Shown: in pieces, positions 2,785 through 26,930 of the stretch
How the letters are laid out: each line of letters begins with the position of its first letter
Position numbering within the stretch: position 1 is the stretch's first letter
Assembly: GCA_001953115.1 (NCBI GenBank)
Contig: LSSL01002711.1
Span: 1-27,751, forward strand
Reading direction: 5' to 3'
DNA from: Smittium mucronatum
Taxonomy: Eukaryota > Kickxellomycota > Harpellomycetes > Harpellales > Legeriomycetaceae
Length of the DNA: 27,751 bases
Notes under the pieces: generated by a model
Seen by the model: the letters and a program-made list of their open reading frames with translations, nothing else
The model's database searches: none
Told to the model about the DNA's origin: nothing
Translations under genes and position numbers: made by a program

Positions 2785-3013
2785 CACACCTTTTCTAAGG
2801 CAAATTCAAAAAAAGTAAAGGTGATTTCAAAAAAGGTAAATTTGAGTTGATATTAGTACATCCAAATAGAAATTATGTGTATTTAAATTTAAATTTAAAA
2901 AATTTAAATTGTTATTCGTAGAAGTAAAAACAATACAAAAAAAAAGATAATTTATTGGAAAATAGTGTTAACTATTTAAATAAAAGTAAATATGAACTGA
3001 AAAAAAGTAAGCC
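2785..3013 (+). repeat. Left terminal inverted repeat of the Tc1/mariner-type element
   Basis: The reverse complement of 4711-4930 aligns along this whole stretch, for example GGCAAATTCAAAA, CATCCAAATAGAAATTATGTG and GGAAAATAGTGTTAACTATT occur in both. Two copies of AAAAAAAGTAA lie inside it, an outer one at 2808-2818 and an inner one at 3000-3010, in the same orientation. That is the inverted-repeat/direct-repeat layout known from some Tc1-like elements, where the direct repeats bind transposase. Binding here is inferred, not shown. Confidence 0.9.
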
Positions 3014-3062
3014 TTATTATGAAAAAACTATTAAAACATGTTTTAGCTAATAAAGACAACAA

Positions 3063-4058
3063 TTAAGATAAAAAAGAATTTTCAATGAGCTGTATAGCGT
3101 TAGAAAACAATTTAATAACATGCGAATCAAATCTTCTGCACATATCAGGAGTTAAAACGCCAAAATATTGTTTAATTGTAGATTTTATGGTTCTTGTTGC
3201 CCATTATTTTTGAGTAGATTCATTTTTTCGGCCACCGGTATGTAAATTTTTTATTTAATTGAACATAATTCTATTTATATCTGATTTTATTACGCCCCAA
3301 GCGCTCTCTATCTGATTTAGCATTGGCGAATAAGTTCCCAGAATAAAAATATAGCTCCAGGGTTTGCGTCAATAATTTCACATATACTGATATGGAAACT
3401 GGGATTGCCAGATACCATTGCTAAATTTACCAAAGACACTCCAACAGCAACTAGTAGCTGAATAATCCCGGTGACCCATTCATTACAATCCTCTATCCTA
3501 TAGTCATTTTTTTAGACTTAAAATATAAAATACCTAAATATGAAAGCCATTAAATCATGTTTACTTTCAGAAATCCTGTTTTTTGTCGTTTAAATATGCA
3601 CCTCTTCCATTTTTTAGATCTACCCCAACCTCTGAGAGGAAATTATTTGAGGTTACTTTCATCGATAAACACGAAAACTTTCCCAAACAGGGATACTCGA
3701 GATAATTACAAAATATTATCGTCTCTTTTATTTGTTTTCCGGAGACTTAGCCTGTATTGGCTTATTATATATTCTCTTTACGATAATAGGCTAAAATTTA
3801 ATCTCCTGCTTATATTTTGGGCCCAAACTCTTAGATTTAATTCCAAATATTGGAATTACATTAATTCTTTAAGCTTAAACGGAAGATTTTCCTTTATTCT
3901 TTTGATTATAAAATAAACATGTTTTCACTTCATTTTATTGGATCCCTCCCTATTCCCATCTCTGGGGCTTGAGTATTTTCTTTTTTATTTTATTCATTAG
4001 TATACAGATGAATGGGGTATATTGTATGCTTATATGAGTCCTTAAAAATCACCTTCAT
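3063..4058 (-). pseudogene. Tc1/mariner (IS630-type) DDE transposase, decayed
   Basis: Reading the minus strand from about 4058 down to a TAA at 3063-3065 gives most of a transposase of usual length. An N-terminal helix-turn-helix-like part contains PFKLKELM and QNISRRLN (about 3880-3790). The first catalytic block VFVFIDESNL, with the first Asp, follows at about 3675-3645, then LRGWGRSKKWKR. A frameshift near 3500 leads to AMVSGNPSFH at about 3420, where the usual DN.S.H second Asp is replaced by Gly. After another shift, GTYSPMLNQIESAWGVIKSD (about 3350-3290) matches the family's SP.LNPIE..W block with the third acid. The tail TPDMCRRFDSHVIKLF fits the C-terminus of related eukaryotic transposases. 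Several in-frame stops and at least two frameshifts make it non-functional. The start at 4058 is only a guess. Confidence 0.85.
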
Positions 4059-4710
4059 TTTCTCTAGTGTAATTATAGCTAATCTAATGGATGATGTGCT
4101 GAATTTTTATTTACCCATAAAAACTGAACTCTATATTGATGTATTAATTATTGACAAGTTTATTTATAATTTGGATAATTAAAGTTTAAAAAAAATGGAA
4201 TTATCTAAAAGCCCCTATTTAAAGCCTTTCCTTTTTTTTCTATTACCAAATATATTTTAGAATGGTGATATTTTTAGACTGAAATTCAGATGAGCTTTTA
4301 TTTTTTAAATTATTTGGTGTCTCATGACAATTTTACTTGGTATTAATACGATTTGTGTAATATCATATTTCAATATAAAGTCAGACCTTACCCAATATAA
4401 ATTAAATAGATATTAAAATCAAAAACACCTTTAATTTGAAATTTCGATTCAACCATTTTAAATTCTATTTCTATTTAAATAAATCCGATTAAAAAATTTA
4501 ATACAAAATTAGGTCATCTAATTTCGCACTTTTTTTATAATTATAATTTTTTACTGATATGGATAATGGAAATGGTTTCGAATTATAAACAATTCCTTTA
4601 GATTAAAATAATATTTTATCGAACTATAGAAAAGAATTATGGGTAATATGTTTATTATATCTGAATAGAAATTCTCATTAAATTATGTTTTACAATTTTT
4701 TGCTAATTAG

Positions 4711-4930
4711 GGCTTACTTTTTTTCATTTCATATTTACTTTTATTTAAATAGTTAACACTATTTTCCAACAAATTATCGCTTTTTTTTGTATTTTTTTAA
4801 TTCTACGTATAATTATTTATATTTTTTAAATTTAAATTCACATAATTTCTATTTGGATGTATAATATCAAATCAAATTTAAATTTTTTGAAATCACTTTT
4901 ACTTATTTTGAATTTGCCTTAGAAAGGGTG
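4711..4930 (-). repeat. Right terminal inverted repeat of the Tc1/mariner-type element
   Basis: This is the reverse-complement partner of 2785-3013. Its inner boundary is GGCTTACTTTTTTT at 4711-4724 and its outer end is CTTAGAAAGGGTG at about 4918-4930. The direct-repeat motif recurs on the minus strand as an exact inner copy (4714-4724) and a one-base variant outer copy (4899-4909), about 185 bp apart, similar to the 192 bp on the left side. Confidence 0.9.
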
Positions 4931-4932
4931 TA

Positions 4933-5425
4933 ATATATCCCTTTTTCATATTATTTGAATAAATTTCTTTATAATATCTCTAAAAAAAAGTAAAATTACA
5001 AATCCTAGATTTTTTATTCTAAATCTTTTAGACAATAAAAAATATTTTACTATTAGTGGTCTTACTTTTATGGTTAGTAATAAATTTCGACAAATTTAAG
5101 CAGAATTCCACTATATTGTGCACATTTAAAATTTAATAAAAAACTTCGACCATTTTAAATCACTTTTGACTAATTTTGAATATTTACCCAATCAAATCGT
5201 TAAAATCTTTACATAACTTTCCACTAATCTTAAAAGAGATCAATCAAAAATGCAGAGGTAAATGCAAAAGATATAATTTGATTTTTTTTATGCGACAAAT
5301 TTAGATACAATATTATAATTTTATATTCTTATAAAGCATAATTGTCGGATTGATGGAAAATATAGCCTATTATTTGAATGTTAAGTTTTAACAAATGAAA
5401 AATAAATATCCATTGGAATTAAACT
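4933..5425. other. Intergenic, with a possible solo transposon end
   Basis: No gene is visible. At about 5155-5191 the sequence TTTTAAATCACTTTTGAC followed by TAATTTTGAATATTTACCC closely resembles the outer part of the neighbouring element's right inverted repeat (4884-4920). This may be an end of a second, deleted element or a MITE, but I found no convincing left partner. Confidence 0.4.
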
Positions 5426-5596
5426 TTAACCCTTTACGAGCCAGAATCTTTGCCTTATTCCCATGATTGATAATTAGCTAATTCAATTTTCTAGGGTTTT
5501 TAATGTATTCGATAATGTAAAAATATAGTTTTTTTAATGGAAAAATTTAATCATAAGTTTATTCCATTTCTGTGCTTTCGGCTCTGAAAGGGTTAA
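5426..5596. mobile_element. TTAA-bounded MITE, copy A (171 bp)
   Basis: It starts TTAACCCTTTACGAGCC and ends GGCTCTGAAAGGGTTAA, giving imperfect terminal inverted repeats of CCCTTT.nGAGCC flanked by duplicated TTAA (5426-5429 and 5593-5596). TTAA target sites and short CCC/GGG termini are typical of piggyBac-type elements. There is no coding capacity, so it would depend on a transposase elsewhere. The interior, with TTAATGTATTCGATAATG around 5500-5518, is shared with copy C in the opposite orientation. Confidence 0.85.
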
Positions 5597-5664
5597 GAAA
5601 ATACAAATGCAGTTTTTAGAATATAATAGCTCTTAAATAATGACAAGATCTTGTATATCAAATT

Positions 5665-5835
5665 TTAACCCTTTCCTGGAACAAATTTGCGCCTTTACCC
5701 TATTTGCATATACTTGCAATTCCAATTGGTTCGAAAATATGATCAGCCCAATGGTATAAAATAAAATTAAACTAATAATAAAATTGAGCAAAAATTGGAA
5801 GACATTTTTTGTACCATCGCACATGAAAGGGTTAA
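5665..5835 (-). mobile_element. TTAA-bounded MITE, copy B (171 bp)
   Basis: TTAA at 5665-5668 is followed by CCCTTTCCTGG and the element closes with CATGAAAGGGTTAA at 5822-5835. Its length is identical to copy A. In reverse complement its interior (TGGTACAAAAAATG, then ACCATTGGGCTGATCAT) matches the start of the copy at 24148, so these belong to one subfamily. A 63-codon minus-strand open frame inside it (5633-5824) is not conserved in the sister copy and is not treated as a gene. Confidence 0.85.
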
Positions 5836-5994
5836 GGGTCGGGAGTAAAAAAATGGAATGAACTTTTGATTTTATGTTATCATTAAAAAGATTATATTTT
5901 TACATTATTGGATACATTAAGAAATATAGTCAATTTAATTAGTTAATAAGAACTATTGGGAGCGTCGCAAAAATTTGGACATAGAAAGGGTTAA
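5832..5994 (-). mobile_element. TTAA-bounded MITE, copy C (163 bp), one end damaged
   Basis: The right end CATAGAAAGGGTTAA (5980-5994) is canonical. The left end shares the TTAA at 5832-5835 with copy B but continues GGGTCGGGAG in place of the CCCTTT terminus. In reverse complement the body is clearly related to copy A: CTAATTAAATT, TTAATGTATCCAATAATG and AAAAATATA appear in the same order. The simplest reading is that copy B landed in, or next to, the terminal TTAA of copy C and the junction was later eroded. Confidence 0.7.
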
Positions 5995-8900
5995 AATAAA
6001 TACCATGTTATTGTTTGAGTTGGTGAAATAGGGCGATTGTTTTATTTTTTATTATGAAAATACAAATAATGAGCAGTTATTGAAAAAAAAATTTTTACTC
6101 ATTTCCAAAAAAAAAAAAATAGTCGATAAACCGGTAAAAAATTTGAGCGTGTTAATTGGATAAATTCTTATATTAGTATAAATTGATTTAAATGGACCGA
6201 GAACGATTGTTTAAAGCTTTGAATTGCTAAAAACAGATGATTAAAGCATATATCGGTCTAAATTTACTATTATACCTATTATTATTATTTTCAATTTATG
6301 CACCCAGTAAAACTTTTTTTGAGGATAATAAGAAGAATTTGATGCTTTTATAAATCGAAGAGCTTGTATATTAATTATATATATAATTAGAAACATCTCA
6401 AAATGTCCCATTTAGAAATATTGACAAATTTTTTGATCGAAATCCTCTCTTCAATTAAAAATTTATATATTTATAATTTTTTACGTGATTTTTATTTCAA
6501 TTTAGTATATTTTATTAATTAGATTGGGTGGGATTGGTAAATATATAGTATAAAATTTAAATTTAATTAATTCCCTGTACTTCTATGAAAATTAAATTGG
6601 GATTTTTATATATATTATAAAATAAATTGCTATGAAATTAGATTTAAACCTACATTATGGCATATAAATTATAATTAACCCAAATATTTATAAAATGAAA
6701 AAATAAATCTATTCAAATTTTTTTTAAAAACGATCTTATGAAATATTTTATTTATTATTTATTATTTATTATTTAAATAAATCAGGCCTATTATAAATTA
6801 AAAATTAAAATTATAAATATATAATTAGTGTGAAAAATTCCCCTCAAAATCATTTTTTTCCATTAAATGTTCCATTAAAACAGGATAAATATTCAATTCA
6901 ATTTTTAATGGGATAATTTTTTGAAGAATCTTTATATTAAATAGTAGTCATTTTATAACGCTTTCTTATTGATTTTCTAGATTTACGTATGAAATCGAAT
7001 ATTTATAAATTTAAGAAAAGAATAACTAAAATATCCTTAGATTTAACCTCCTTATAACACATTTTATTAATATCTGTATATATACTTATTTCAATCATAT
7101 TTTTAAAAATTACACTATTATAAAATATTTATACGAAAAATTATAACCATCTTTAAAGCTTTTTTTAAAAAAGTTTCGAATTTAGTTTTTAGTTTTCATT
7201 TATAGGGATTTTATAATCTATATATAATTAATTTTAATCGTATTAAAGTTTTGCAATTTAAGCAAAATTAACATTTTAATTCGATTTTAATTCATATTAA
7301 TAACCGAAAATATATGAATATATGGAAAATTTCCAGACTCTTAACTGTTTTGGAGGTACATATCTCTGGATAGTTTGTCGAATTTATTTTGAATTTAATT
7401 TAATTTGTATAATATTATAATTTTTAGGGCTATAACTTCAAATTTTTACTTAAAAGGGATTAAGAAATTATAGTATATTTAATCGAAAAATATAAATTCG
7501 ATTTTTTATATAAAAATTCTAAAAAACATTAAAGATTGATTTCAAACGAATATTATTTCCGAAAAATTCCAGACTAATTCATAGATCTTTATTATGAGTT
7601 TTTATAATTTGGTTAATTTTTTATGTGATTAGGTTTACTGCTCTCTATTTTTCTCATTAACTCGAACATAAAGATAGTAGGCATCTTTTTTTCAGAAGAT
7701 GAAATAATAATGTTTTAATCAATATTTAATTACTAATGAAATACTCCGACAGCATTTAATTTTTCATGAAAATATGTCTATAAAGATGGTATGCATTTAA
7801 TTTCAAATAATCACCCTAATGTCTTTCAAATAAAATGTAATACCTATTTGAAATGGATTTATAAGTATTTTTACAAGTAAGATTATTTCCCTTTTATTTA
7901 GTTTTCCAAAAAAAAAAATATCGATTTTTTTTTTGATGCTGCTCTCATAACGACACTTCCATCTTTACTTTTCGATGATAATTTTTAAAAAATAATTAAA
8001 AAATACTTCATCGTGTTTTTCACGAAAAAATATCTTTAAAACTCTCGATAAATATACATTTTATTTTTTACTTTGACTTCTGTGTTCTCAAAAATTGAAT
8101 AATTTGTGATTCATATTTAAGACAAAAAATCATTTTTATTAATTTTACATAACAATGTATATCAATATATAACAATATACTAAAATATTTTACTTATAAT
8201 TATATTCAAGTTGTTGGATAAGCCTGAATAGGATTTTAGCTTGGTTTAGCTAATTTTTTTATCATTTTATTAACACGAAAAAGGTCTATAAAAATTTCAA
8301 GAAATTTTTTTCTGGTAATCACTGGTATAAATTTTTCAATTGAAATTAATTTTTTATGTAGATTGGATTTATCAATCAATTCCTTATATGTTTGATAAAA
8401 AATATTTAAGTAAATTTTGTTAATTCCTATGATGTTTTTTTTGAATGGCCAAATAATCTGGGAAATTTACTAGATTTAATTTTAAAAAATTTTAAATCGT
8501 TAATAAATTATTTTGGATGTTTTTAATCGATTTTTTTAAGTCTTAATTCCCTGTTTTACAAGTTATTTCTTTTAAATAATTAAGTAATATTTATTAAAAT
8601 ATAAAAGCTTTTAATAATTTATAATACATTAACAAGTATTATTTATTTATTTTTTCGAGTATATTTTATCACGGATCATTTTAAATATATTCAATTTCAA
8701 TATTTTAATGGTATTTAAAGATTCATTTCACTAAAAAAAAAGTAAAATTAAATATAAGAATGTGAAAATTTTTAATTTTTTGGATTATAAAGATTTCAAA
8801 TTTAATAATGTAAAAATCATAATTTAATAATATGTGTATAAAAATGGGCCATTTAAAATCCAAATTCTCATAGTCTATGTCAGATAATTTTCTAATTTAA

Positions 8901-9568: not shown

Positions 9569-9679
9569 ATATTAAATATTCTAGATTTCTATAGTATATG
9601 CCTATTTAAATATGTACTAAATGTTTAATATATTATTTTAATTACAAAATTTCTCACGGATATTAAAATTTATTCCCAA

Positions 9680-9916
9680 TCAAATTAAAAAAAATTCGCA
9701 AAAAATGTGCACAATTCCTCGATGAAAAACACCCCATCTCAAACAGTCAACAACATTTCCCAATATGAATGGAATTTTTTTATAAAAAATAAGGATGTAT
9801 TTTCTAAAGACTCCAGTTTCATTTCTCAAAAAACCAAGCAATATTTTGAAAGAAGAGAAATTCCAAAATTCGCTATTTTTTTTAAAAACCCCAATTTTAC
9901 ATATAATCATTCCTAA
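9680..9916. other. Overlapping open frames on both strands in the left arm, unrecognised
   Basis: A 69-codon plus-strand frame (9707-9916, starting at a GTG, ending YNHS) and a 76-codon minus-strand frame (9680-9910) overlap almost completely, and both recur in the right arm at 12368-12577 (minus) and 12374-12604 (plus). The plus-strand frame is rich in Asn, Ser, Lys and Gln with few hydrophobic runs, which looks more protein-like than its antisense partner. I do not recognise either. They could be an accessory peptide, transposase debris, or chance frames preserved by arm identity. Confidence 0.3.
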
Positions 9917-10036
9917 AAAGGTTCTTTATAATATCTTTTTGGTTTTTATTTAAAATAATATTTAATAAAAATATTTTTTAAATATGTGACTAATCAAAAC
10001 ACTCTTTCTCTGGACACTAAAATTGAATAAATTTTT

Positions 10037-10258
10037 TTATTTATTTATTTGTAAAATTTTGTCTAAAAGTAGCATACTTTCTTTTTCTTTTTTTATTCGA
10101 AAATTAACTCCAAGTTTTTTTAATTGATCAGTATAATGACGGATCATCTTCGAAATCATCTGATAAAATTTTAAACGTCTTTCTCCTAAAATAGAACACC
10201 CATAAATTTGAAAATTCGATGCTGAATTCAAACACAGTGGTAAGTACACACATTTATA
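10037..10258 (-). pseudogene. Transposase C-terminal remnant in the left arm
   Basis: This is the mirror copy of 12026-12247, where the evidence is described. It faces outward, toward the left end of the element. It is identical to the right-arm copy over the whole open frame, including the apparent frameshift, so the two did not decay independently. Confidence 0.5.
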
Positions 10259-11199
10259 CCCGTTTAAATTTATGCTTTTATTGGGAATTTGTGATATGTT
10301 TTTTTATGGAGGGTTTTTTAAAGAATTCTTTTGTAACTTTGGAAAATGTTTAAAGACCTATAAATTTATCCAAATATAGAAAAAGGGTGTTATTTCTGAG
10401 TAAAAAGTTTAGTTTTGGAAATAATTTGTTTCTCAGTTTCATAATATATATAAATCAATCTATGTTACTAAAAGAATTTTTTGATTTTTTGACTAAAAAA
10501 TTTCTCATAGGCTCTCAATTTGTGAGATTTTAATATATTTCAAGATAATTATTGTAATTACACATAAAAATTTGTTTATTTAGCCTTAAAAATGTAAATC
10601 AAACAGTTTATTAAAGCCCAAAAATAACTAAATTTGTATAAAATTTCAAAATAAAGCTTCATTATTGATACTACTAATAGATTGAATCATTAATCGGATG
10701 GTTCGAATTATTTTAACGATGTAATATTTGATATATTTCATGGTCTCGATGATTCTGCTCTTAATTTATTAGCCAGATAAAAAAAAACGCTATTTTTTTA
10801 ATAAGATATGATCATTAATTTTATCAATAAATATGAAAATAGAACATTCGTTAGACAGCTATAATCTGAGTTATATATTTCAATTTTTATTTTAAATCCT
10901 AACTTTGATAAATATATTAATGTTATTTTTAATATAGAAAGCTAGCTAAAATCAACTAAAAACTAGTTACAAAATAAAAAAGAAAAATCGAAAAAAATAA
11001 TTTAATATCAATTCTAATTTCTCAAAATCCACCTATAACTTATATTAACTTAAAAACCTTCTCTCTAATGAGATAATTTTAATTCGTGTATCTTCTATCA
11101 ATAGGGAAATTATTGGAATAGTTCTATCAAGAAAAAAAGTAAAATAAATGCAAATTTAAACATATATCAATAGAATCATCTATAATATAAAAAAAATTG

Positions 11200-11707
11200 G
11201 GGAAATTAGCGTTATATCTAATGAAAATATAGTTTACGTAGATAAGACCGGAATTAACCTAAATCTCACTAAAGCATACGGATTTTCTTCTTAAAAAAAA
11301 GCTTTTATTAATTTTCCAAGAAATAGATATTCAAAAATTTCTATTTTGGCAGCTATAAATTTAAATTAATAATAGAATTTTAAACTATTAAATTAAATTT
11401 TAAAAATATTTCTTTCAATAATTTCCTAAATATCAAATTATTTACCAAAACCAGAAATACGCAAATTCTAATCTATAGTAAAGCAAATATACATAAAACT
11501 AAAATAATTAAAAATACGATTTATTCATGAAGGAATAGTTTCGAATTCTTTCCAGCATATTCAAAATATTATAATCCTATAGAGCAAGTGTTTTCTACAT
11601 TTAAAGCGCGATAAAAGCTTATAAAATCAAAGCCTAAAAATATTCAAATGATAAAGATATGCTCTTTAAATTTTTTGGATTTTTTTGATTATAATTTAAC
11701 AAACTAA
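11200..11707 (+). pseudogene. Tc1/mariner (IS630-type) DDE transposase fragment
   Basis: The frame starting near 11200 reads NENIVYVDKTGINLNLTKAY and shortly after KISILAAINLN (about 11329-11367). This is the first catalytic block (VDETG type, with Glu changed to Lys) and the following strand of the DDE_3 fold. Further on, KANIHKT at about 11481-11501 is where the second Asp block is expected, but the Asp is gone. Then FEFFPAYSKYYNPIEQVFST at about 11551-11610 matches the SP.LNPIE.VF block that carries the third acid. Stops interrupt the frame (after FSS, after INLN, after IYS, and after FKAR), and it ends at TAA 11705-11707. The N-terminal DNA-binding part is not recognisable upstream. It is clearly dead. 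Confidence 0.85.
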
Positions 11708-11811
11708 TTACGTGTAATGAAAAAGCTGGTTGATCTGGAATAGAAAAAAAATCCGTGTATCTAATTAAAATTTTCGATTTTTTTATAATTACACAAAATA
11801 AATAAATATTA

Positions 11812-12715
11812 TTTAGTAACATAGATTGATTTATATATATTATGAAACTGAGAAACAAATTATTTCCAAAACTAAACTTTTTACTCAGAAATAACACCCT
11901 TTTTCTATATTTGGATAAATTTATAGGTCTTTAAACATTTTCCAAAGTTACAAAAGAATTCTTTAAAAAACCCTCCATAAAAAAACATATCACAAATTCC
12001 CAATAAAAGCATAAATTTAAACGGGTATAAATGTGTGTACTTACCACTGTGTTTGAATTCAGCATCGAATTTTCAAATTTATGGGTGTTCTATTTTAGGA
12101 GAAAGACGTTTAAAATTTTATCAGATGATTTCGAAGATGATCCGTCATTATACTGATCAATTAAAAAAACTTGGAGTTAATTTTCGAATAAAAAAAGAAA
12201 AAGAAAGTATGCTACTTTTAGACAAAATTTTACAAATAAATAAATAAAAAAATTTATTCAATTTTAGTGTCCAGAGAAAGAGTGTTTTGATTAGTTACAT
12301 ATTTAAAAAATATTTTTATTAAATATTATTTTAAATAAAAACCAAAAAGATATTATAAAGAACCTTTTTAGGAATGATTATATGTAAAATTGGGGTTTTT
12401 AAAAAAAATAGCGAATTTTGGAATTTCTCTTCTTTCAAAATATTGCTTGGTTTTTTGAGAAATGAAACTGGAGTCTTTAGAAAATACATCCTTATTTTTT
12501 ATAAAAAAATTCCATTCATATTGGGAAATGTTGTTGACTGTTTGAGATGGGGTGTTTTTCATCGAGGAATTGTGCACATTTTTTGCGAATTTTTTTTAAT
12601 TTGATTGGGAATAAATTTTAATATCCGTGAGAAATTTTGTAATTAAAATAATATATTAAACATTTAGTACATATTTAAATAGGCATATACTATAGAAATC
12701 TAGAATATTTAATAT
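11812..12715 (-). repeat. Right arm of the 904-bp inverted repeat
   Basis: This is the reverse complement of 9569-10472, ungapped and practically identical. It begins about 105 bp after the stop of the spacer transposase pseudogene. Such an arm pair could form a cruciform or a large hairpin when single-stranded. Confidence 0.97.
12026..12247 (+). pseudogene. Transposase C-terminal remnant in the right arm
   Basis: A frame open from about 11981 reads NLNGYKCVYLP at about 12014-12046, the usual strand before the SP.LNPIE block. A shift into the frame of the ATG at 12031 gives EFSIEFSNLWVFYFRRKTFK (about 12055-12114), then DDFEDDPSLY, a stop, and SIKKTW. This resembles (L)NPIE.LW...KRK followed by an acidic stretch and a final helix, as at the end of Tc1/mariner transposases. 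In the first frame the DNA stays open to 12247, encoding a Lys-rich 70-residue tail starting at a GTG, not an ATG. I infer a decayed transposase end; a novel small protein is the alternative. It lies downstream of, and is distinct from, the spacer transposase. Confidence 0.5.
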
Positions 12716-21300: not shown

Positions 21301-23130
21301 ATAAAAAAAGTAATTAACACTCTGGTTTATGATAACCTATCTACCAAGTGTATTTTAAATTAAAATATTTATATCTTTTTTACACTGCTGTTCATCGAGC
21401 AAAAATATATAAGTCAATTAAATCTAAAAAGATTTTCACTTTAAACAAAAATATCCCTTAAAAAGAACTTTATAGTATTTATAAAATAAATCTTACTATG
21501 GGCATTCCAATTAAATCAATTATCAAATATTAATAAAAGACTTTCTGTAAAGCCGATTTTTTACTAGAAAAAATAAATTCTGTCACGTTTGTTTTTTTAA
21601 AAAACAAAATATATATACACCAAATCTAAAAATAACAACGTTTGATGTCTTTTATTTATGAAAAGAGAATCGATCTTATTTTCAAAATCAGATAAATTTT
21701 GATTTTTTAGAATATTCATCCAATAGAAGATGTTGATATTTTTTTTATGACGAAAAATATTATAGATGGATTTTTTTTCAGCTGAGGAGTGATTTATATT
21801 AAATATGGCCCATATTTTCTTAAGTATAAACAGGTTTAATGCATGAGATTTTTTTCCTATTTTGATACTTTTATTCTAATGGCTTATTGGAAGTTTTTGA
21901 TTGAAAGGTTTGAAGTTTTCTTATTATAAAATTTCGAAATAAAAGTTAGAAGAGGTACTTATTTAAAAATAAAAATATTTGTCAGTAAACAATTTTAATT
22001 TCAAAAATTACTCGGACCAGACCAATTATGAACATAATTAAACCAAATCATATATAATTCATTGGTGGGACATGTTTATTTTAGGATATGTATGGACCGA
22101 TATAAAATTTATTGAATATATTAAAGTTACAAGTAATAAAAAAACTGGATTAAAATGTTTGATGAACAATCTATAAAGAAATTTAAACGAAGTTTTAGAT
22201 ATTGTAAAAGATAAAAGCAAATTTGGATTTCGTTTAATGTTGGAAAATTTTCCAAATACAATTTTTTTCCTATAAGAGACATGTTTATTATATAAATTCT
22301 TAAAACTGTAAAAACAGAAAAAAAAATTCTTATCTTTATCAATAATTTTTTTTAATAAAAGTTATTATTTCCGCATAAGAAAGTCATTAAATTGTGATTG
22401 ATGGATTTAGCTTAATAAAATAGACACACTCAAGTCTAAGGACCAAATATTTTCCCCATTAAGCTCATCTTTTTATGAAGGTTAAAGTTTTTTAAGCTTG
22501 ATACATTTGTGCTCAACATACCTTAGCTCTTTCTAGTCTGGTTGTACAAAAATAATCCCACTTTTTTTAAGCGTTATTTGATTTTTAATAATTATATTCT
22601 TAATTAGATCAAGAAGTTAGGGGCATTGAAATTTATAAACACACAAATATAAATGGAGCAAGAATTTGTACCGAGAAAATTTTGAAATTTACCGATAACA
22701 AAAGTGTACAGAGTTAAAATTTGTACAATTTAAAATTTTTATTCTGCCGTGTCGAAATTAACATTATTTAAAAGTTATTATATTTTAAATACTTCCACTA
22801 AAAAAGTTTTGATATTTTTAGTACCGCTGACTTTGAAACGGCGAAATTATGAGATTTAATAGGTTTTAACAACAGTTTCAATCTCCTGTATGTCTTCAGT
22901 CATGAAAACCCTGAAATAGATAAGTCCGGAATAAAAAATAGGTGTTCAGTTTTCGGTAAATATAGATAATTAATTTTTTATTATATATTGATAATTGGAC
23001 CATTATTTCCGAACATAAAGTAATAAGATGCAACAATTATGAATAATGAACTTTTTTATCGACAGTTTATTGGTGGGAAACACCGTTAGCATTGTGACAA
23101 AAAAAAAAGCAAAAAAAGTGCAAGTCATAA

Positions 23131-26036: not shown

Positions 26037-26930
26037 ATGCACGCCGCTCCAATTTCAACCTTTTTGCTTGCCCTTTCTGGGATGGTCTCGGCTAAATATG
26101 GATTTTCATACAGCGAAGATGATTTCAGAGATTCTGGAATGAGAATGTATACTAAAGTTATCAATGGAAAGATTACTGGGACCAATTATTACCCTTTTAT
26201 TTCTCAGCTTTTTAGAACTGATGATGGTGGTTCCAATTTCAGCTTTGAATGCACTGGGTCTCTTATTGGGTCACAATACGTTGTTACTGCTGCTCATTGT
26301 GTTCACTACAGCGACAGAACCATTATGCCAGCAAAAGCTTTCGGACTTATGATTGGTAGTGCTGAATTAGCTACTGCAGACGATGTCCAGGATTTTTATA
26401 ATGTTACTGATATTTATGTTGATGGTTACAGAACTGAATCAGCAAATGATATCGCTATTCTTAAACTTGATCGCGAAGTTCTCCCCACTGTAGCTACTCC
26501 TGTCAAAATATACCCATACCAGGTTACTTCTAGCTTGCCCGTCGAAGTAGCAGGTTTTGGAATTACAAAACTAGACTCTACTGACTTGTCTCAAGAGCTC
26601 ATGAGAGCCTTGGTATCTGTATCTAATAGCACTCAGTGCGAAGACTTCAACTCAAGTTGGGACAATAATTCTGGGCCTCTAATTTGCTCTATTAATGAAA
26701 ATGGAAACGATTCCTGCAAAGGTGACTCCGGTGGTCCATTGGTTGCTAAGCTTAATGGAGAGCGTACTCTTGTTGGAATTACCAGCTGGGGTGTCAATAT
26801 GGACTTTACCAATCCTTCACAATGTGGGAATAACACTATCTCATACTACGTAAGAGCAGCTAACTTTGCCAAATGGGCCGCTTCTACCATGGGCGTGGAT
26901 TATACCACTGTTATTCAGCTTAAAGATTAG
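26037..26930 (+). CDS. Secreted trypsin-like serine protease (S1 family), 297 aa
   Basis: This is an intact single-exon S1 (chymotrypsin-fold) protease. Residues 1-19 form a signal peptide ending VSA. A short propeptide runs to Lys40, followed by VINGKITG, the activation-site form of the usual IVGG, so cleavage after Lys40 would give a 257-residue mature enzyme. The catalytic triad is His87 (TAAHC), Asp138 (NDIAILKL) and Ser231 (GDSGGPL). Asp225, six residues before Ser231, is the S1-pocket Asp that gives trypsin specificity for Lys/Arg, supported by SWG at 250-252. Six Cys (72-88, 201-217, 227-263) match the three conserved disulfides. Sequons at Asn67, 122, 197, 205, 210, 224 and 265 suggest glycosylation. 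The ATG has A at -3 and begins the signal peptide directly. Likely role: extracellular protein digestion; the substrate is not known. Its base composition is far less A+T-rich than the flanks. Overlapping frames on both strands are shadows. Confidence 0.97.
   Translation: MHAAPISTFLLALSGMVSAKYGFSYSEDDFRDSGMRMYTKVINGKITGTNYYPFISQLFRTDDGGSNFSFECTGSLIGSQYVVTAAHCVHYSDRTIMPAKAFGLMIGSAELATADDVQDFYNVTDIYVDGYRTESANDIAILKLDREVLPTVATPVKIYPYQVTSSLPVEVAGFGITKLDSTDLSQELMRALVSVSNSTQCEDFNSSWDNNSGPLICSINENGNDSCKGDSGGPLVAKLNGERTLVGITSWGVNMDFTNPSQCGNNTISYYVRAANFAKWAASTMGVDYTTVIQLKD

Follow-up and report, generated by a model that had tools for sequence, protein, structure and literature searches.

Arm-to-arm copying in place probably keeps the arms of relict long-repeat transposons alike in Smittium mucronatum

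How does a transposon with a broken transposase come to carry two arms that differ by a single base? The question is posed by a palindrome in the fungus Smittium mucronatum (assembly GCA_001953115.1; 73.8 Mb, 2957 contigs), located on contig LSSL01002711.1 (C1492), the whole of which, 27,751 nucleotides and free of N runs, is referred to here as the window. A sequence-only reading had paired each base x of 9569–10472 with base 22284 − x around a spacer of 1339 bp (10473–11811), and computational alignment of the arms upholds both the pairing and the spacer, with 904 ungapped pairs and one mismatch, G at position 9988 (plus strand) and T at 12296, giving an arm identity of 99.9%. Outside the arms, full 50-bp bins pair at 9–24 positions of 50, which is the level of chance.

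The palindrome is thus as claimed, but neither of its 904-bp arms is a single unit; each consists of a transposon end and 74 bp of flank. The borders were placed by aligning 20 arm ends from the same genome, 18 of them outside the window (two of the 18 being both sides of one element). TA lies in a common column in 16 of these 18, the exceptions being C2040 and C1577, the terminus reads GTA in 13, and the flanks beyond the TA are unrelated. The transposon proper spans 9645–12639 (2995 bp), with a left terminal inverted repeat (TIR) of 828 bp at 9645–10472 (plus strand), supported by the arm pairing, the arm-end alignment and relatives in the assembly, and a right TIR of 828 bp at 11812–12639 (minus strand), supported by the first two; the TA borders, from the arm-end alignment, lie at 9643–9644 and 12640–12641. 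Past the TA the matches run on unbroken for 74 bp, such that the left flank stretch (9569–9642, plus strand) is an exact inverted copy of the right one (12642–12715, minus strand), inside the palindrome and outside the TIR. In a search of the 73.8-Mb assembly this stretch was matched at these two places only, and the idea that it belongs to a dispersed repeat was dropped.

The spacer contains a decayed transposase on the plus strand, has no stop-free frame of 70 aa, and retains a DDE_3 (PF13358) remnant at 11357–11620 (plus strand; E 4.4e-9, 41.9 bits, above the family cut-off) that contains one TGA and two TAA. When the element was searched against the assembly, at least 64 matching stretches came up, the window's own included, and the dispersed copies, TA borders and DDE_3 remnants bear out the earlier proposal of a long-repeat DNA transposon: judged by its sequence, the palindrome is a relict long-TIR transposon of the IS630-Tc1-mariner kind with a broken transposase. 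Among the matches listed, one other copy, C817, has both arms (72%), and many contigs end within an arm. The reading frame is broken in C817 as well, a copy that yields a stop-free DDE_3 piece (E 1.3e-10; a piece in L035 gives E 2e-10). Across the assembly DDE_3 is matched 93 times, and in 77 cases the match is interrupted by one or more stops; at least three further groups of elements with inverted repeats were told apart by visual inspection of their ends. The N-terminal helix-turn-helix part was matched in L038, which belongs to another family, mostly below the cut-off, and had no match in the L039 piece; no solved structure resembles the L039 transposase piece in sequence at E 0.1. We note that L038 (1324–2334, minus strand) encodes an unbroken DDE_3 transposase of 336 aa, in a 3.4-kb locus for which no inverted repeat longer than 21 bp was reported.

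A recent inverted duplication had been suggested as an origin of the arms. As such an origin it is unsupported, since C817 has the same layout and the same 1339-bp spacer at ~72% identity; the 74-bp extension into both flanks, seen in the window copy only, does stand as a local event. Nor do near-identical arms imply a young insertion, because any other place matches the window element at no more than 74% among the matches listed, as against 99.9% between its own arms. The same holds elsewhere in the genome. C2040 and C1577 are contigs that hold opposite sides of one element; over 771 bp their arms are 99.87% identical, and any third arm matches either of them at 74% or less. C2835 and C1552 are identical over 493 bp, as are C29 and C1984 over 461 bp. 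Two families were compared further, family C, a related one and the best sampled, being represented by L035 and L046–L053, i.e., all nine two-armed copies from the 40 of 158 candidates scored; from a second list of two-armed copies four were used, and C1451 and C228, whose pieces are scattered, were left out. In family C, arm identity is 0.960–0.997 within copies and 0.718–0.889 between copies (mean 0.793, 144 comparisons), and the tree is star-like. The arms of one locus are more alike than those of different loci in both families: all nine arm pairs of family C (support 1.000) and all five of family A are mutual nearest relatives, the identical C2835/C1552 pair having no support value. These comparisons show, as far as the assembled sequence records it, that sequence is transferred between a copy's own arms, with little or no transfer among the sampled copies.

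Changes private to one copy point the same way. In family C, 155 private substitutions are shared by both arms and 16 are confined to one; for private gaps the counts are 18 and 8. Without transfer, changes arising in a fixed copy would be expected in one arm, with the caveat that the count would include changes predating the copy's last move. From copy to copy the spacers have diverged as far as the arms have, at 75.5% and 79.3% identity, respectively, and the longest stop-free frame among 11 spacers is 112 aa. Because the copies carry broken transposases, their arm identity is unlikely to be owed to selection for transposition. GC-biased conversion was considered as well, and its signal is absent, a point against conversion, the arms being GC-poorer than the spacers in 13 of 14 copies.

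Recent transposition would account for like arms by a different route, if each copy were a recent arrival, possibly mobilised in trans, derived from a source whose arms were identical, so that divergence had not yet set in. Cut-and-paste movement leaves no sibling, so that lone copies with like arms are possible, and the unbroken transposase in L038 exists; however, each of the nine family-C spacers has accumulated 2–11 private frame-breaking gaps, and the edges of the identical blocks are in the wrong places. If identity merely dated the insertion, the block should fill the TIR and end at the TA. In the window, identity overruns the TA by 74 bp on both sides. In L046 the match continues ~32 bp past the element, 29 of them alike, whereas within the arm two of 634 bp mismatch, both close to its inner end. 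In C2040/C1577, by contrast, agreement stops inside the element, the next 90 bp having 54 matches with 45 gap columns, and both ends have diverged from the family terminus, yet each is still recognisable. In addition, the terminal bases, presumably those needed by the transposase, are the least alike and are unequal in six of eight copies (L035 and L047–L051). The terminal 20 bp hold 14 mismatches in 160 positions, compared with 26 in 5035 interior positions (odds ratio 18, p = 4.5e-12; eight copies, namely the six above, the window copy and L046, excluding L052, in which identity begins some way within the element, and L053, in which the contig ends in the arm). This contrast calls for caution, as an assembler that merges near-identical paths could have erased interior mismatches and spared the outermost ones. 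The contrast is independent of L050, which contributes 18 of the 26 interior and two of the 14 terminal mismatches. Taken with the frame-breaking gaps, these edges make recent transposition very unlikely. L049 and L050 have the same pair of unequal ends, oriented alike relative to the transposase, despite arms that differ by ~17%, and this end asymmetry seems older than their split.

The 74-bp flank match, and that match only, could also be the target itself, had the element inserted into the centre of a pre-existing perfect palindrome of 150 bp. Tc1/mariner elements tend to favour symmetric AT-rich targets, the match is symmetric about the TA, and nine flank bases match in L048. Yet in five of the eight copies the flanks are at chance from the first base, the search matched the flank stretch nowhere else in the assembly, and the overshoot of L046 contains three mismatches in 32 bp, compared with the two in 634 bp of its arm, as an older conversion edge would. 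We regard insertion into such a palindrome as unlikely.

Another explanation places the identity in the assembly, the arms truly being different and an assembler or polisher having overwritten one of them, or an amplification chimera having made the inverted copy. The many contigs that end within arms are in keeping with such an error, and merged paths would yield identical interiors with unequal outermost bases. Path merging, however, should not invent an extension into the flank, and arms ~20% apart, as other copies are, share too few words to be merged. Isolated interior mismatches persist in the window, L035, L047 and L050, two different flanks follow the arms, and the inverted layout is common to C817 at ~72% identity. 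Arm identities grade from 74% to 100%, most pairs having distinct flanks, and a pure assembly artefact, which the sequence-only reading had allowed for, is unlikely.

The reading that we prefer, and consider probable, is that dead elements undergo, in situ, repeated gene conversion from arm to arm or repair templated by folding back; conversion is here deduced from one assembly rather than observed as events. The two arms would pair as a hairpin, as a cruciform or via the sister chromatid, and the partner arm would be chosen for its nearness, 1.3 kb being close enough for folding back or for an encounter on the sister chromatid. Damage (a break) or a stalled fork in one arm would then be repaired from the other, the copied tract replacing the old sequence. 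Such a tract would usually halt a few bases inside the element, the outermost bases escaping because homology is missing beyond them. Occasionally synthesis would go further; in the window copy it would have overrun the end by 74 bp into one flank and been sealed to the opposite side, an overrun that would lengthen the palindrome outward into host DNA. The data fit either break repair or replicative template switching.

Homogenisation is not universal, as seen in L050 (94.6%), L031 (90.8%) and L040 (85%). Arms are 74–91% alike in L031, L040, L034, L036, L039 and the second element of the window, mostly over short blocks. Blocks of at least 470 bp (15 copies) have arms 94.6–100% alike and shorter blocks (eight copies) 74–97.6%, a comparison in which length and age are confounded, as diverged arms also align over shorter blocks, and from which L056, with a 322-bp block cut by the contig end, was excluded. 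Among the fetched loci, L031 and L052 contain one N run each. A family-A cluster on C986 (L012 1653–9901, and L041) surrounds an element with 473-bp arms that are 99.2% alike; two family-A arms lie ~6.6 kb apart there and are ~70% alike over 194 bp, possibly separated by nested insertion. This nested pair was dropped as a distance control, since its pieces, which may belong to two elements, overlap in window coordinates by ~75 bp.

Several other features share the window with the palindrome. The second inverted-repeat element, more decayed, lies at 2786–4931, with arm blocks of 166 bp (84% alike) and 70 bp (91% alike) and, by eye, ends resembling those of family C and, on the minus strand, a DDE-like piece. 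A further inverted repeat at 5425–5995 has 164-bp arms that are 72% alike and 243 bp apart. Positions 26037–26930 encode a trypsin-like serine protease, intact at 297 aa (Pfam Trypsin, E 5.6e-31), whose closest proteins are from Smittium culicis (60% identical) and S. mucronatum, as is probable for this one gene in a Smittium-like gut fungus. Near the contig end, 27392–27703 is an exact head-to-tail duplication with a spacing of ~156–158 bp, which may be an assembly end effect. No structural RNA or tRNA genes were reported in the window.

The arms also contain regularly spaced motifs. In 14 family-A arms, TTCCCA recurs at 20–23, 41–44 or 62–66 bp in 61 of 66 intervals, and is seen 80 times compared with 2.2 expected from base composition, the arms being partly related. 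Family-C arms carry AAAAAGTR-like motifs at ~21 bp; the motifs of the two families are unrelated and have a nearly equal pitch of ~21 bp, i.e., two helix turns. Partly open frames in the outer arm were considered as coding, but they track the TTCCCA repeat with its 21–22-bp pitch and are better read as a non-coding array. By analogy with Galileo, for which binding sites in the TIRs are reported to have been shown (PMC3688188), the arm motifs may be transposase sites.

If conversion of this kind operates, the genome supplies arm-to-arm gene conversion in many natural replicates, away from both sex chromosomes and animals, and TIR identity is unusable for calling a transposon young. The ends that escape conversion, and the tracts that spill into the flanks, would reveal where such repair stops. 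A bolder proposal, which we advance tentatively and think somewhat doubtful, is that in this fungal lineage the rectification of inverted repeats lying close together is frequent enough to turn dead transposons into self-maintaining palindromes, which can also grow outward by overshooting repair, the added flank then being open to homogenisation in its turn. Were this so, the age of a copy could not be told from the divergence of its TIRs, and the rate of conversion would be recorded in the spacer, which decays while the arms last.

Compared with known systems, the window element resembles IS630-Tc1-mariner transposons in its DDE_3 transposase, in the TA at both borders, in having TIRs and in its length of ~3 kb. 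TIRs in that group typically measure tens to a few hundred bp, whereas those of the window are 828 bp, and the motif array of family A at 21–22-bp pitch is a further difference. In the open literature, which leaves most subscription papers outside and thus makes for a weak claim of absence, we found no description of outward spill into host flank; under the same limit, which weakens the claim equally, we found no report of a fungus in which so many decayed copies have homogenised arms. In the Wolbachia element ISWpi1, the TIRs of one copy are reported to recombine with each other, and conversion tracts were inferred from an unequal base (PMC3004938); the outcome there is inversion of an element with 23-bp TIRs, whereas here long TIRs are homogenised. 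The arms of sex-chromosome palindromes are kept more than 99% alike through gene conversion (PMC3723533, PMC8981503). Such palindromes are large and often gene-bearing, unlike the sub-kilobase TIRs on many dispersed dead transposons considered here.

A further close likeness in arm behaviour is with Galileo, a foldback-like member of the P superfamily in Drosophila, which has long TIRs with repeated motifs and shows within-copy TIR homogeneity, the TIRs being more than 99% alike within copies and ~7% different between them (PMC2775673); conversion between TIRs with inward extension has been proposed for it (PMC3573991). Membership of Galileo or the P superfamily would entail a P-type transposase with a THAP domain and a 7-bp target duplication, in place of which DDE_3 and TA are found; the four transposase pieces scanned gave no match to the THAP domain, the N-terminus of the window's own protein being lost. 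Target duplications of 7 bp are reported for Galileo, whereas the window element combines DDE_3 with TA, and the Smittium elements differ further in that divergence between copies is far larger and in that copying appears to spill outward into the host flank.
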